In this document: piece by piece, positions 53,627-58,877 of the stretch
Numbering within the stretch: position 1 is the stretch's first letter
How the letters are laid out: every line of letters begins with the position of its first letter
Assembly: GCA_028817905.1 (NCBI GenBank)
Contig: JAPPOR010000007.1
Location: 3,502 to 62,452 of the forward strand
DNA from: Myxococcales bacterium
Lineage (GTDB): Bacteria; Myxococcota_A; Polyangia; Polyangiales; JAFGIB01
Direction of reading: 5' to 3'
DNA length: 58,951 nt
Notes under the pieces: model-generated
What the model was told of the DNA's origin: nothing
Seen by the model: only the letters and a program-made list of their open reading frames with translations
Databases searched by the model: none
Made by a program: the position numbers and the translations under genes

Positions 53627-55435
53627 GTGGCAGCCACAGTGGGCCGCAGCAAGGCGGGATCGGTGAAGGTTTTGGTCGCGCACGCCGATAGCAGGAGGAT
53701 GGCGGCCCAGGGGCTCGACGACAAGCTGTTCGGCTCAGCGGCGGTCGAGCTGCGACTGCTGACGAGCACGCAACTGGGCGAGTGCTATGTGCTGCAGCGT
53801 GACCAGCCGCTGGCCCAGGTGTGCGCCGAGCATGGCTATCTCACCCGTGACCAGGTCGAGCAGGTGTTGCGCTATCAGCGCGAGCTGCAGCGTCGGCTAC
53901 AGGGCGAGGCGCACCTATTCGGTCGTGTCGCCATGTCTCTCAAACTGCTCACCATGGAACAACTGCGCGACTGCCTGGTGCGGCAACAGTCGTCGGGGTT
54001 CAAGCAACGCCTGGGCGAAATCACCATCGAGCGGGGTCTGCTGACGCCCGAACAGGTCGCCCAGATCCTGCAACGACAGAAAGCGGTGAGTGCGTCTTTC
54101 GAGGCCGAGATTCCCCGGTTCGGCAAGTTCGCGCTGGAGATGGGTCTCCTAACGCAAGACCAACTAGAGGAGTGCGTGCGCCTGCAGCAGGAAGAAGGCG
54201 CGGTTCGCCGCCTTGGCGAGATCTGTGTCGCCAAGAGCTACATGACATCGGCCGACGTCAAGGCGGTCCTCGAGCGGCAGACCGCAGCCAAGCGCGACAC
54301 CGATGCCCAACCCGGCGGGCACGCGACCGTCACCGGCGCACCATCCGATGCCAGCAGCCCCCCCGCTCTGGACGGCTACCTGCGCTTCATGGTCAACAAG
54401 GGGGCCAGCGATCTTCACCTGAGTACCAATTCGCTCCCCTGCATCAGGGTGGACGGGCAGATGGTGCGCTTCGGCCGCGACCCTCTGGGCGCCGCGGACA
54501 TGCGCGAACTCCTGATGGCAGTCGTCGACCCCAAGACGCTCAAGCAGTTCGAGGACACGCGCGACGCCGACTTCGCCTATGCCATCGAGGGGTTCGCCCG
54601 CTTTCGTGCAAACTACTTCATCGACCGCAACGGCCTGGGGGCAGTCTTTCGACATATCCCACAGACGGTTCTGACCGCGCAGCAAATCGGACTTCCTTCG
54701 AAGATCACCGAGCTGTGTTGGCTACAGAAGGGCCTCGTGCTGGTCACCGGGCCGACTGGAAGCGGCAAGTCCACGACGTTGGCCGCGATGATCGACTTCA
54801 TCAATGAGCATCGCAGCGACCACATCATCACGATCGAGGACCCGATCGAGTTCGTCCACAAGAACAAGGCATGTTTGGTCAACCAGCGCGAGGTCGGAAG
54901 TCATACGCAATCCTTCCAGCAAGCCCTGCGCGCCGCGCTACGGGAGGACCCCGACGTGATCCTGGTGGGCGAGCTTCGCGACCTCGAGACTGTCGCGATC
55001 GCCATCGAGACGGCTGAGACGGGGCACCTGGTCTTCGGCACACTCCACACCACCAGCGCAGCCACCACGATCGATCGCATCGTCGACCAATTCCCCGCAG
55101 GACAACAGTCCCAGATCCGCACTATGCTGGCGGCGTCCCTGCGCGGGGTGGTGGCGCAAATGCTGTGCAAGAAGAAGGGCGGCGGCCGTACGCCGGCGTT
55201 CGAATTCCTCCTGTCCACGCCGGCGGTTGCGAACATCATCCGCGAGTCGAAGACCGAACAACTCACCAACGTGATGCAAACCGGACGGCGGCTCGGCATG
55301 CAGACCATGAACGACCATCTGTTCGGGCTGGTTCAGCAGGGAATTGTGGAACCCAAAGACGCCTATCTAGCTTCCAATGACAAGCGAGGGCTCAAGCAGC
55401 GGTTCTCCGAGGCCCGTATCCCGCTGCCAGCCTGA
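53627..55435 (+). CDS. PilT-like retraction ATPase with six N-terminal repeats
   Basis: 602 residues from GTG 53627 (ATG 53699 directly behind AGGAGG is an alternative). Residues about 35-225 hold six units of about 30 residues ending in a (G/E)xLLTxEQLxxxLxxQ pattern (RLLTSTQL, GYLTRDQV, KLLTMEQL, GLLTPEQV, GLLTQDQL, SYMTSADV), similar to GspE/PilB N-terminal modules. Residues about 245-600 are PilT: Walker A GPTGSGKST near 374, DPDVILVGELRD, GHLVFGTLHTTSA, and ANIIRE matching the PilT-specific AIRNLIRE. It should power type IV pilus retraction or a related motor. Confidence 0.9.
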   Translation: MAATVGRSKAGSVKVLVAHADSRRMAAQGLDDKLFGSAAVELRLLTSTQLGECYVLQRDQPLAQVCAEHGYLTRDQVEQVLRYQRELQRRLQGEAHLFGRVAMSLKLLTMEQLRDCLVRQQSSGFKQRLGEITIERGLLTPEQVAQILQRQKAVSASFEAEIPRFGKFALEMGLLTQDQLEECVRLQQEEGAVRRLGEICVAKSYMTSADVKAVLERQTAAKRDTDAQPGGHATVTGAPSDASSPPALDGYLRFMVNKGASDLHLSTNSLPCIRVDGQMVRFGRDPLGAADMRELLMAVVDPKTLKQFEDTRDADFAYAIEGFARFRANYFIDRNGLGAVFRHIPQTVLTAQQIGLPSKITELCWLQKGLVLVTGPTGSGKSTTLAAMIDFINEHRSDHIITIEDPIEFVHKNKACLVNQREVGSHTQSFQQALRAALREDPDVILVGELRDLETVAIAIETAETGHLVFGTLHTTSAATTIDRIVDQFPAGQQSQIRTMLAASLRGVVAQMLCKKKGGGRTPAFEFLLSTPAVANIIRESKTEQLTNVMQTGRRLGMQTMNDHLFGLVQQGIVEPKDAYLASNDKRGLKQRFSEARIPLPA

Positions 55436-55914: not shown

Positions 55915-56361
55915 GTGGCCCGTACCATGGCGAGCGTCATCGAACGGGTGATCCTGCTACAGGCGGTGGACGTGTTCGAGGGAGTCTCGACCGAACAGCT
56001 CGCGCATATCGCGGCGATCGCACACGAGGTCAGCCATCCAGCCGGGACGACGCTCTTCCTTGTCGACGACCCCTCCGACGCCATGTTCGTGGTCGTTGAG
56101 GGCGAAGTGAAGCTCTCCCGCGGTCAGCAGGTCGTGACGGTCGCCGGGGCCGGCGAGGCCTTCGGGACCTGGTCGCTGTTCGACGACGAGCCGCGGGTGG
56201 TGGACGCCGAAGCCGCTACCAACGTCACGCTCCTGCGCCTGGACCGCGCGGACTTCATCGATCTGCTAGCGGACAACGTGGAGATCACCCAGGGCATCCT
56301 GAAGGGCATTGTTCAGCGTCTTCGGGGAGTTGCGGGCCGGCTGGTTTCGGACGGCAGTTGA
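55915..56361 (+). CDS. Stand-alone cyclic nucleotide-binding domain protein
   Basis: 148 residues from GTG 55915 (ATG 55927 is as likely). A single cNMP-binding barrel: LLQAVDVFEGVSTEQLAHIAAIAHEVSHPAGTTLFLVDDPSDAMFVVVEGEVKL, then GAGEAFGTWSLFDDEPRVVDAEAATNVTLLRLDRADF. The phosphate-binding cassette is poor (FGTWSLFDDEPRV instead of FGExALLxxxPRxA), so real nucleotide binding is doubtful. No helix-turn-helix follows. Perhaps a small signalling subunit beside the response regulator. Confidence 0.8.
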   Translation: MARTMASVIERVILLQAVDVFEGVSTEQLAHIAAIAHEVSHPAGTTLFLVDDPSDAMFVVVEGEVKLSRGQQVVTVAGAGEAFGTWSLFDDEPRVVDAEAATNVTLLRLDRADFIDLLADNVEITQGILKGIVQRLRGVAGRLVSDGS

Positions 56362-56417
56362 CGGGGAGGCCCTCGCGCCCTAACTTCCGAGCTCCGAAAT
56401 GCTGGAGTAGATAGCCC

Positions 56418-56900
56418 GTGTCAGAGCCCGCCGAAGAAGGCACCGTGCTCATCGTCGATGATGAGGAAATGGTGCTCACATCCCTGTCGTCGTTCTTGAC
56501 GCTGGAAACGTCCTACGACGTCGTGGTCTTCACCCGCGCCGCGGAGGCCATCGAGCACATCAAAGCGAACGAGGTCGATCTGGTCATCTCGGACTTTCTG
56601 ATGCCGGAAATGGATGGCCTGGCATTCCTGCGCAAAGTACGGGACCTGCGCCCGGATGTGCCCCGGGTCATCCTGACAGGCTACGCGGACAAGGAAAACG
56701 CGATCAAAGCCATCAACGAAGTGGGCCTCTACCAGTATATCGAAAAGCCCTGGAACAACGATGACCTGCGGCTGGTGATCCGCAATGGCATCGACAAGAG
56801 GCGGCTGGTCCGGCGGCTCAGCGAAAAGGTGGACCAGATCAACGAGGCCTACTCGGAACTGCAGACGATTCAGCAGGACATTCTCAAGGCCTTCGTGTAG
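56418..56900 (+). CDS. Response regulator with KPW-type receiver and C-terminal coiled coil
   Basis: 160 residues from GTG 56418. Receiver: Asp14-Asp15, phosphorylation site Asp59 in VISDFLMPEMDG, Thr87, Lys110 in YIEKPWNN. The KPW form and GYADKENAIKAINE occur in receivers of HD-GYP and hydrogenase-type regulators. Residues about 125-160 form a coiled coil (KRRLVRRLSEKVDQINEAYSEL), with no output domain. It lies 56 nt after the cNMP gene and could be its partner. Confidence 0.9.
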   Translation: MSEPAEEGTVLIVDDEEMVLTSLSSFLTLETSYDVVVFTRAAEAIEHIKANEVDLVISDFLMPEMDGLAFLRKVRDLRPDVPRVILTGYADKENAIKAINEVGLYQYIEKPWNNDDLRLVIRNGIDKRRLVRRLSEKVDQINEAYSELQTIQQDILKAFV

Positions 56901-57016
56901 GGCGTGCCAGGCGCCCGTTTGCTCGCGGTCCAGCCGCTCGAAAATCAAGGCGAATGGGCCGGGTCGGCTTCCCCCGTCCGGTCGACCGGGTTGCGTTCGC
57001 ACCGGGAGGACTTACC

Positions 57017-57925
57017 TTGACCCCGATGCGATGGTCCTATCGAGTCGGTGAGTGGTTTGGCATTGGAGTACACGTCCATTTGACCTTTGCGCTTCTGCTG
57101 GGCTGGGTCGCCGTCGGTACGCTGGCAGATACGGGTTCGCTCCCAGCTACGCTGATCAGCGTGCTCCTTGTCATGGCGTTGTTTGGCTTCGTGCTGTTGC
57201 ACGAGTTTGGGCACGCCCTTACCGCGCGCCGCTTCGGCATCCGGACGCGCAACATCACCCTGTATCCGATCGGCGGCGTCGCAGCGTTGGAGGGCATGCC
57301 CGAGAGCCCGCGTGCCCAGGCGCTGGTCGCAATCGCCGGCCCGATGGTGAACTTCGCGCTCGCCCTCGGCTTGGCTGGCCTGGCATGGCTGTTGGGCCAA
57401 AACCCCTTTGCCTCACCCACGACAGCCGCGCCGCTCGAGACCCTACTGGGACTGATGGTACAGGCCAACCTGGTGCTGGGGCTCTTCAATCTGCTGCCAG
57501 CGCTTCCGATGGACGGGGGACGCGTGCTCAAGGCCCTCCTTTCCACACGCATGGACGCCCGGCGCGCCACGGCGATTGCGGCCCGTGTCGCCCGAGTAGT
57601 GGCGCTGGCAATGGGGGTCTACGGCCTACTCGGCACGCCGACCCGTCCGATGCTGATCGTGATAGCGGCCTTCGTTTGGTTTGCCTCCGCCGCCGAAGCG
57701 CGATTTGCACGCGCCCAAGCGCAGCGTACGCGCACGAGCCCCATCAATGCCTGGCCGACCGACCGCTACCGGACCCCGCGCCCGCGAGAGACTCACTTCC
57801 ATGGCGGGCCACCCGACCGTGGCCCCCGGCCTTCCGGTAGCGGACCATCCGAACAGATGCGCTTCGTAGTCGTCCACGGCCCGTTCGGGCCAGTCCTGCG
57901 CGTCGTGCCCGTCGACCCCCGCTAG
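57017..57925 (+). CDS. Site-2 protease-type M50 metallopeptidase
   Basis: 302 residues from TTG 57017, chosen because GGGAGGA lies 7 nt upstream (ATG 57026 would be 16 nt away). Membrane segments about 20-40, 45-65, 100-125, 140-165, 200-235. Zinc motif HEFGH near 69-73 in the second or third helix and the third ligand in NLLPALPMDGGRVL near 170. It cuts membrane-bound substrates, often anti-sigma factors. The C-terminal 70 residues are a polar extension with no CBS domain seen. Precedes repeat A copy 3. Confidence 0.92.
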   Translation: MTPMRWSYRVGEWFGIGVHVHLTFALLLGWVAVGTLADTGSLPATLISVLLVMALFGFVLLHEFGHALTARRFGIRTRNITLYPIGGVAALEGMPESPRAQALVAIAGPMVNFALALGLAGLAWLLGQNPFASPTTAAPLETLLGLMVQANLVLGLFNLLPALPMDGGRVLKALLSTRMDARRATAIAARVARVVALAMGVYGLLGTPTRPMLIVIAAFVWFASAAEARFARAQAQRTRTSPINAWPTDRYRTPRPRETHFHGGPPDRGPRPSGSGPSEQMRFVVVHGPFGPVLRVVPVDPR

Positions 57926-57927
57926 CG

Positions 57928-57992
57928 CGCATCCATCACCAAATCGCGCGCCCTCGCACAAGTGATCATCACGTGCCTTGATGATGGATGCG
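57928..57992. repeat. Perfect 11-bp inverted repeat with inner palindrome
   Basis: Arms CGCATCCATCA (57928-57938) and TGATGGATGCG (57982-57992), 43-nt loop holding the palindrome GTGATCATCAC (57962-57972). It starts 2 nt past the protease stop and runs into repeat A copy 3. Could be a second small element or an operator for the Crp/Fnr gene. Confidence 0.55.
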
Positions 57993-57997
57993 GGCTG

Positions 57998-58098
57998 GCC
58001 CGGATCATTCACGACCTCGGCGACCGAATACTCGCCGTATTCGGCGAGCGAGGACAAAGCCCTGTCAAAGTCGAAGACCAAGCGTGGGTTGGCGGAAT
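57998..58098. repeat. Dispersed repeat A, copy 3 (shortened)
   Basis: Starts GCCCGGATCATTCACGACCT, like the other copies, and regains similarity at GTATTCGGCG and AAAGCCCTGTCAAAG (58056-58070). It lacks about 60 bp of the middle. The left flank GGGCTGGCCCGG equals the right flank of copy 2 (21033-21044). It lies in the 226-nt gap before the Crp/Fnr gene. Confidence 0.6.
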
Positions 58099-58151
58099 AG
58101 CCGCGCTGGCGTCCCCTCTCGTACGGCACTCGGTCCGTCGTTGGAGGCCCT

Positions 58152-58877
58152 ATGGCCCAACCGAGCAAACCCGCGGAAGCCATGCGGAGACTTCGGGGGA
58201 TTCTCGAGGAAATTCCGCTATTTGCAGGTCTAGAAGACGAAGAAGCGCTGCGCATCGGAGCAGCCGCCCGGCAGCGGACGTTCCAACGCGACGAAGTCGT
58301 CGTCGATTGCGGTGAGGCGCCCCAGGCGGTCTACGCGATCGCCTCTGGCCGCTTGAAAGTGGTCCGGCCCCGCATCCAAGGCCCAGACGCGGGCCTCGCG
58401 ATTCTGAGGGCGGGAGAGTTATTCGGTGAGGTCGCCATCCTGAGCCGCACCCAGGAAGGCCGTCTCGCACGCGTGATTGCACTGCGCGAATCCGTCCTGT
58501 TGGCGATCGACGCCGCGACCTTCGTCGGCTTGCTGCAAAGCTCACAGACCCTATCCCTAAGGCTCCTGGCCATGCTGGCAGGTCGCCTGCGGGACACGAC
58601 GGTACATTTTGACGACGTAACCTCGCTCGATGTGCCCGGTCGCCTGGCCCGCAAGCTACTCTTGCTGGCCGACAGGTTCGGCTCCCCAGTACAGGACGGC
58701 GTGGGGCTACAAGTTCGCCTCACACAGCGCGAACTGGGTGAACTGGTCGACGCGACCTGGCGCGACGTCAGCGCCTGCCTGACCCAGTGGCGGCTCGAGG
58801 GGGCCCTGCGCCTGCGAGACGGGCAACTCGTTATCGTCGACCTGGATGCGCTCAGGTGCTACGCCGACACAGCCTGA
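58152..58877 (+). CDS. Crp/Fnr-family transcription regulator
   Basis: 241 residues; ATG 58152 with GGAGG 5 nt upstream. cNMP-type barrel 15-135 (LFAGLEDEEALRIGAAARQRTFQRDEVV, GELFGEVAILSRTQEGRLARVIAL), dimer helix 140-165, then a winged helix with LTQRELGELVDATWRDVSACLTQWRLEGAL as recognition region. Only one Cys early on (Cys53), so no Fnr-type iron-sulfur cluster. Effector unknown; regulation of the oxidase operon at 1-6600 is conceivable but not shown. Confidence 0.92.
   Translation: MAQPSKPAEAMRRLRGILEEIPLFAGLEDEEALRIGAAARQRTFQRDEVVVDCGEAPQAVYAIASGRLKVVRPRIQGPDAGLAILRAGELFGEVAILSRTQEGRLARVIALRESVLLAIDAATFVGLLQSSQTLSLRLLAMLAGRLRDTTVHFDDVTSLDVPGRLARKLLLLADRFGSPVQDGVGLQVRLTQRELGELVDATWRDVSACLTQWRLEGALRLRDGQLVIVDLDALRCYADTA

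Follow-up and report, generated by a model that had tools for sequence, protein, structure and literature searches.

Three MshEN_N modules in front of a PilT/PilU-family motor core in a Myxococcales bacterium

Described motors with MshEN-type modules

Among the described pilus traffic ATPases, PilF of Thermus thermophilus resembles the protein considered here in having three tandem N-terminal modules of the MshEN type (PMC11731258, PMC12002112), and three consecutive GSPII domains are said to have been reported only for PilF of Deinococcus-Thermus. The original prediction, that such modules normally occur once or twice in PilB/GspE-type proteins, has to be corrected as to their number because three GSPII domains are known in this extension motor (PMC11731258). 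As an assembly ATPase, PilF belongs to the PilB subfamily, whereas the motor encoded in the window (the whole stretch of DNA analysed, 58,951 nucleotides) is of the PilT class. Each PilF domain also includes a C-terminal alpha/beta subdomain and occupies 137–173 residues, while the modules of the window protein follow one another at 63–67 residues. The first PilF domain, GSPII-A, does not bind c-di-GMP, and module 1 of the window protein likewise looks degenerate by sequence. GSPII-A has been proposed to act as a landing pad, and it fails to bind partly since its helix 1 is extended and capped (PMC12002112); in GSPII-B, the first turn of helix 1 must unfold for c-di-GMP binding.

In MshE of Vibrio cholerae and PilB of Myxococcus xanthus, as in the window protein, a four-helix module is built from two units of 24 residues (PMC5013675, PMC11656802), and M. 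xanthus PilB binds c-di-GMP via its MshEN domain (PMC11656802). Both of these proteins are extension ATPases, in contrast to the window protein with its three modules, deviating motifs and PilT-class core. As many as 22 MshEN genes are attributed to M. xanthus, and MshEN is described in fusions with REC, HD-GYP, CheA, CheX, cyclase and kinase domains (PMC5013675). In PilB of X. citri, the MshEN_N-like ND0 has the fold without the binding motif, and the N-terminal domain binds PilZ (PMC8389850). Increased retraction of V. cholerae pili at low c-di-GMP has been attributed to reduced MshE activity.

According to a 2024 review, extension ATPases can be told from retraction ATPases by their additional GSPII domain (PMC11656802). 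The word “PilT” is absent from the main text of PMC5013675, and the passages of PMC6060248 on myxobacterial PilT phylogeny mention no such fusions. Among literature titles and abstract openings, no PilT with MshEN or GSPII modules was recognised, while the supplementary architecture tables of PMC5013675 might mention one. The solved PilT proteins (P. aeruginosa, Geobacter PilT4) resemble the core of the window protein from the N1D domain to the C-terminus, including the NTPase motifs; their chains start near N1D, the alignment with the query setting in at chain residues 5–32, and have no array in front.

The repeat array and the motor core

The motor gene is an open reading frame at 53627..55435 of the forward strand, encoding a PilT/PilU-family ATPase of 602 amino acids with an N-terminal triple MshEN_N array. 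Its start codon, given as GTG, is uncertain: in-frame starts lie at 53627, 53639, 53663, 53672, and 53699, all upstream of the first unit. Residues 34–218 comprise six units of 24 residues, arranged as three A/B pairs ahead of the motor, just as had been predicted. Module 1 is formed, on the same strand as all the others, by units A1 (53726..53797, residues 34–57) and B1 (53807..53878, residues 61–84), the latter degenerate, with Pro at position 1 and Ala at position 3. Module 2 consists of A2 (53915..53986, residues 97–120) and B2 (54008..54079, residues 128–151), the second of which agrees with 9 of 11 key positions, and module 3 consists of A3 (54116..54187, residues 164–187) and B3 (54209..54280, residues 195–218).

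This order clearly exceeds what shuffled sequences produce. On the 11 published key positions, the six best non-overlapping segments sum to 42, whereas 2,000 shuffles of the N-terminal 245 residues never exceeded 32. Five of these segments are the units themselves, and the sixth lies partly over B1 in a shifted register. When the window’s own rows are left out, a pair profile, whose five rows were picked by similarity to the window protein, gives 29.2, 47.2, and 46.5 bits for the three pairs and at most 7.3 bits in 1,000 shuffles (803 with any hit). Pair 2 is 42% identical to pair 1 and 38% to pair 3. Since the DNA local scores between pairs (101–105) only slightly exceed the codon-shuffled maxima (92–99), a recent tandem duplication of the pairs was rejected, and the duplication appears to be old. 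The LLT motif, predicted for each unit, is exact in four of the six (B1 has YLT and B3 has YMT), and it does not close the units as had been supposed: in the structure model and the unit alignment, it lies mid-unit, between the two helices.

A short linker of 27 residues (54281..54361, residues 219–245; forward strand) connects the array with the motor core (54362..55426, residues 246–600; forward strand), which consists of one N1D domain and the ATPase as delimited by TIGR01420, PDB matches, and motifs. In the orthologue from genome G511, described below, the linker is longer and rich in Pro, Ala, and Gln. The assignment of the motor to the PilT class was borne out by the curated NCBIfam model TIGR01420 for type 4a pilus ATPases, which takes in PilT and PilU alike and gives 464.8 bits for the window protein and 457.2 for the orthologue (cut-off 319.1). 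The best solved match is a PilT as well (3jvu from P. aeruginosa, 4.2e-111), with 375.6 bits versus 262.8 for PilU. The model of the PilB extension ATPase, TIGR02538, gives 137.3 bits, which is below its curated cut-off of 675.65. The core contains GPTGSGKS at 375, TIEDPIE at 402, ILVGELR at 445, TGHLVFGTLH at 465, and AVANIIRE at 533, which we take to be the Walker A, Asp box, Walker B, His box, and AIRNLIRE-like motifs of the PilT family; all five are present in the orthologue, where the last one reads AVANLIRE. The motors of the PilT/PilU family are hexamers.

After the motor gene, at 55915–58877, genes for a cyclic-nucleotide-binding protein, a response regulator, an M50 protease, and a Crp-type regulator lie in a row. 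The segment 48038–52354 encodes a protein of 1438 amino acids with C-type lectin and PQQ-type beta-propeller matches and an HEAGH metallopeptidase-like motif. None of the six ORFs nearest to the motor gene is recognised as a pilus gene, and comparison of these six neighbours with the loci of 17 relatives (some of them short) gave one weak match, a response regulator in L094 (4.2e-8). With no pilus gene nearby and no conserved neighbourhood, the surroundings of the gene do not tie it to a pilus system, which counts against the main reading given below.

As judged by profile and predicted fold, the pairs are MshEN_N modules, which have the four-helix fold of a c-di-GMP receptor. The MshE-related model of a cyclic di-GMP-binding domain, NF053729, gives 75.0 bits for the window protein (curated cut-off 38), the same model also having matches in 5 of 14 control genomes. 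Its match spans a whole two-unit module (1–53 of 53), and singly it gives 40.0 bits for module 3 and 39.3 bits for module 2, while module 1 is absent from the listed matches. Compared with solved structures, the N-terminus alone detects Thermus PilF (8.5e-7) and Geobacter PilB (3.6e-4), with MshE at a non-significant 0.78; the three-pair profile yields the same top proteins (6.8e-8, 1.9e-5, and 0.02, respectively).

The AlphaFold2 model of the array, made from the single sequence (pLDDT 80.7, pTM 0.51), is all helical, with four helices per pair, the fourth of which continues into the next pair. Foldseek matches a single module to MshE complexed with c-di-GMP at ranks 3–4, with a probability of 0.99, and to PilF GSPII-B at ranks 19, 23, and 35 (probability 0.82–0.93), with rmsd values of 0.8–1.1 Å over 55–57 columns; all E-values are at least 1.5 and thus not significant, and ranks 1–2 are unrelated repeat proteins with a probability of 0.1. 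In VIA-align, MshEN modules head the list (MshE, Z 9.5, rmsd 2.2, 56 residues; PilF GSPII-B, Z 9.1; X. citri PilB, Z 8.4) and unrelated folds stay below 5, with the reservation that a Z below about 13 can reflect an arrangement common in helical bundles. The cyclin and death-domain matches (Z below 5) were set aside as such common arrangements. Because the Foldseek E-values are not significant and the Z values fall in this range, we rank the evidence of the curated profile first; the profile, the solved-structure matches, and the fold comparison agree on the MshE type originally proposed for the units.

The C-terminal alpha/beta subdomain of a full GSPII/MshEN domain was not found in the array. 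With module starts at residues 34, 97, and 164 and a 27-residue linker, there is no room for the alpha/beta half of GSPII of about 80 residues. In Pfam, the FumaraseC_C family scores the MshEN_N units (53627–54370) at 44.4 bits against a cut-off of 32.5, which makes it an annotation trap.

Distribution and ancestry of the three-module form

When 317 genomes of the class were searched with the N-terminus alone, genome G511 gave a frame of 789 amino acids with three pairs and a PilT core (E 1.9e-44, 41% identity), the only other such protein detected among them. The two proteins are 56% identical overall and 39% identical over the array, and the G511 genome (97% complete, 3% contaminated) belongs to another taxonomic family. 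The profile of the two sequences gives 452 bits for the window’s genome (G000), 415 for G511, and 58 for the next genome. The three-pair PilT is a real, conserved, and rare architecture; the notion of a one-genome oddity was rejected because G511 carries the same protein. The repeats thus have both MshE-related profile matches (NF053729) and an orthologous array, contrary to the case in which the original prediction was to be given up, namely no MshE-like consensus and no such repeats in orthologues.

The searches of the order, of a drawn phylum sample (377 genomes, G511 not listed among them), and of the class gave no additional three-pair PilT among the at most 7, 8, or 15 candidates scored per genome (8 in the class search with the two-sequence profile and 7 in the phylum search), misses being possible. 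A full-length search gave 29 further loci (L010–L038) without such repeats, one of which (L020) is truncated by the contig end, and a contig scan over the best 80 of 177 confirmed loci, with mostly motor-derived patterns, gave no PilT ORF with a pair. The count took in 175 PilT cores, of which 156 lack a pair, 18 have one, and a single core has three; they come from 205 core-bearing ORFs, from which cores below 180 bits (PilB-type, partial), those with fewer than 300 columns, and identical cores were dropped. Found later, and lying outside this count, are the G511 protein, a PilT with two distant pairs (G509, L186/L197, 661 amino acids), and a one-pair PilT (L187). Three pairs ahead of a PilT are as exceptional as supposed (1 of 175 cores, plus the orthologue), but the original assignment of such modules to PilB/GspE-type proteins needs correcting, since one-pair PilTs recur in Myxococcota (18 ORFs).

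Two kinds of related frames were met along with these proteins. The frame L184:9061-10290, which adjoins the G511 orthologue, has a signal-like start and weak MshEN-like units (12–24 bits) with no Pfam match. The frames in L185, L189, L190, and L195, of about 300–400 amino acids, have two MshEN-like pairs followed by a further region, which we take by resemblance to be CheX-like.

The one-pair PilTs of Myxococcota are similar to the window protein in the fusion of MshEN_N to a PilT-family core and differ from it in the single pair and in the clade of the core. Their cores form a separate clade, supported at 99* in the quick tree and at 100/100 for the six used in the careful tree. The single pair together with the different core clade suggests that this fusion apparently arose independently of the three-pair form. 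The window’s own genome holds a one-pair PilT as well (G000:C535, an 831-aa frame). A plain pilT adjoins the one-pair paralogue in the five loci that have surroundings, L073 (G000:C535), L074, L075, L076, and L078, and in these tandem paralogues the MshEN_N pair is accompanied by a linker.

In the quick tree of 174 PilT cores, the window core falls into a clade of 22 rows (98*), 20 of which carry another N-terminal domain, “FY”, with L020 cut by its contig end. In the careful tree of 67 rows, the window and G511 proteins form a clade (97/94) nested in a group of 23 rows (99/98), the window row being flagged as a long branch (0.58) and its placement being less sure for that. FY matches the N1D of PilT at the profile level (probability 96.9, E 1.9e-10). 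Its model, based on nine sequences (pLDDT 86.7), covers 104 of 105 residues of a superposition on P. aeruginosa PilT with a VIA Z of 15.4, and its Foldseek E-values go down to 2.7e-6 (PilT2 of Thermus). By profile and model, then, FY is a second copy of PilT’s own N1D, and the architecture of the subfamily is N1D-N1D-ATPase. Such duplicated-N1D PilTs comprise 31 ORFs among L010–L098 (e.g., L085:5557-5871), from Myxococcota with one Gemmatimonadota ORF.

Since the window and G511 cores are nested in the double-N1D subfamily, the phylogeny indicates that in these two genomes the three MshEN_N modules took the place of the first N1D. The family of the motor, the type of its modules, the conservation of the arrangement across two taxonomic families, and the position of the core inside the double-N1D subfamily are direct results of the computation. 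The protein is a new combination of known parts, on a motor class where the GSPII part was said to be absent.

Ligand-contact positions and possible functions

The strict c-di-GMP motif of 24 residues, (R/K/L)LGxx(LVI)(LVI)xxG(LVI)(LVI)xxxxLxxxLxxQ in both units, is found in 0 of 6 units of the window protein and 0 of 6 in G511, the window units reaching 5–9 of the 11 key positions. The relaxed motif of PMC5013675 is found in A3 of the window only, i.e., in 1 of the 12 units of the two proteins. The proposed alignment with the MshE motif is therefore sustained by one unit in its relaxed form and by none in its strict form.

In the complexes of MshE and PilF, the ligand is contacted by side chains and backbone at positions 1, 2, 3, 4, 17, 21, and 24, of which six were scored, position 4 being omitted as not conserved. 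With residue classes chosen by the analyst (hydrophobic at 2, 17, and 21), each unit of modules 2 and 3 of the window protein has compatible residues at all six positions, while module 1 deviates (Pro-1 and Ala-3 in B1, Tyr-21 in A1). In G511, B1 keeps all six positions, A1 has Leu at position 24 as numbered with Gln one residue further, and A3 has Ser at position 1. The last-position Gln occurs in all six units of the window protein and in five of the six of G511; in the two proteins alike, modules 2 and 3 keep Gly-3 and Gln-24 in each of their units. Position 2 is Phe in all A units, and position 6 is Ala, Thr, or Cys throughout. In PilF, replacement of the last-position Gln by Glu lowers the affinity for c-di-GMP (PMC11731258). 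The N-subdomain can bind on its own: MshE 1–62, without the C-subdomain, at 0.35 µM (PMC5013675), and PilF159–221 at 54 nM (PMC11731258).

Taken together, the motif fit and the contact positions support “MshEN_N module, binding plausible” rather than “binder”, a label that sequence does not earn; c-di-GMP binding is predicted only. GGDEF has 20 matches in the genome, and NF053729 has 11 at E 1e-5 (seven above the cut-off, two of these in the window protein), so that c-di-GMP is very likely made by this organism.

The most likely reading, to which we give somewhat better than even chances, is a PilT/PilU-family motor with three MshEN_N modules that is gated directly by c-di-GMP. At the N-terminus of each subunit, three MshEN_N (GSPII N-subdomain) modules in tandem stand where the sister proteins have their second N1D. 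Binding of c-di-GMP at modules 2 and 3 would alter the array, with module 1 being putatively degenerate like GSPII-A of PilF. In the single-sequence model, helix 1 of modules 2 and 3 appears continuous with the preceding last helix, and, since helix 1 of GSPII-B must unfold its first turn, ligand binding would need, and cause, a break in the helices connecting the modules. This break may change the ATPase cycle or the way in which the ring docks onto the pilus platform, and c-di-GMP would then set retraction on the retraction-type motor itself, beyond the extension motor alone. The continuous helices cut both ways, as they may represent a switch or a sign of shut sites; they resemble the extended helix 1 of Thermus GSPII-A, which is part of what keeps that domain from binding, and this speaks against gating.

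The main rival, which we consider possible but appreciably less probable, is that the modules no longer bind a nucleotide and act instead as an arm on which other proteins dock, be it platform proteins, an adaptor of the PilZ type, or a polar marker. The key positions do deviate from the c-di-GMP motif, ND0 of X. citri PilB lacks this motif within a PilZ-binding N-terminal domain (PMC8389850), the non-binding Thermus GSPII-A is a proposed landing pad, and the F, G, C, and Q common to every A unit of both proteins could mark an interface. However, modules 2 and 3 pass the curated c-di-GMP model NF053729 and keep Gly-3 and Gln-24 in the window protein and its orthologue. Overlapping with both of these readings, and unlikely in our estimation, is a role as an accessory of the PilU kind, or as the motor of some other machine, in which the array regulates something else. 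The failure of TIGR01420 to separate PilT from PilU, the six nearest ORFs without a recognised pilus gene, and the 16 T2SSE family matches in the genome, i.e., many such ATPases, would suit it, while the best solved matches are PilTs, with PilU scoring lower.

Far less weight is due to the two remaining explanations. The units could be an unrelated helical repeat, a fumarase C-terminus or DUF4388, that merely resembles MshEN: Pfam reports FumaraseC_C (2.3e-11) and DUF4388 (4.8e-6) on the array, each above its cut-off, and none of the four families reported for the window protein is of the MshEN type. This is very improbable, as the best Pfam stretches have 29 and 27 residues, about one unit each, whereas NF053729 fits the whole module and MshEN modules head the VIA list; the Pfam pieces are taken as a shared helix motif. 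Practically negligible is an assembly chimera or gene-model artefact joining a repeat protein to a PilT, which might be suspected from a draft genome of 1,110 contigs and a three-pair form seen in two genomes only. The frame is single and uninterrupted, its halves are equal in GC3 (0.796 and 0.81), and an assembly artefact is refuted by the orthologue, conserved over the array in the nearly complete G511 genome.

Returning to direct gating by c-di-GMP, we suggest tentatively, at somewhat less than even chances, a second-messenger-gated pilus retraction motor of the PilT class whose three unequal modules would give a graded response, with such control having arisen at least twice in Myxococcota. 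Its two apparent origins would be the replacement of the extra N1D in the three-module form and the separate one-module clade. The PilT-class proteins with MshEN_N modules depart from the rule given in the review cited above (PMC11656802), and automatic annotation, with Pfam naming a fumarase C-terminus, can hide this class. A small N-terminal construct suits the testing of c-di-GMP control on a retraction-type motor. Direct control by c-di-GMP has been described for extension motors and might also act on a retraction-type motor; if the gating proposed here is true, the messenger would directly control retraction in addition to extension.
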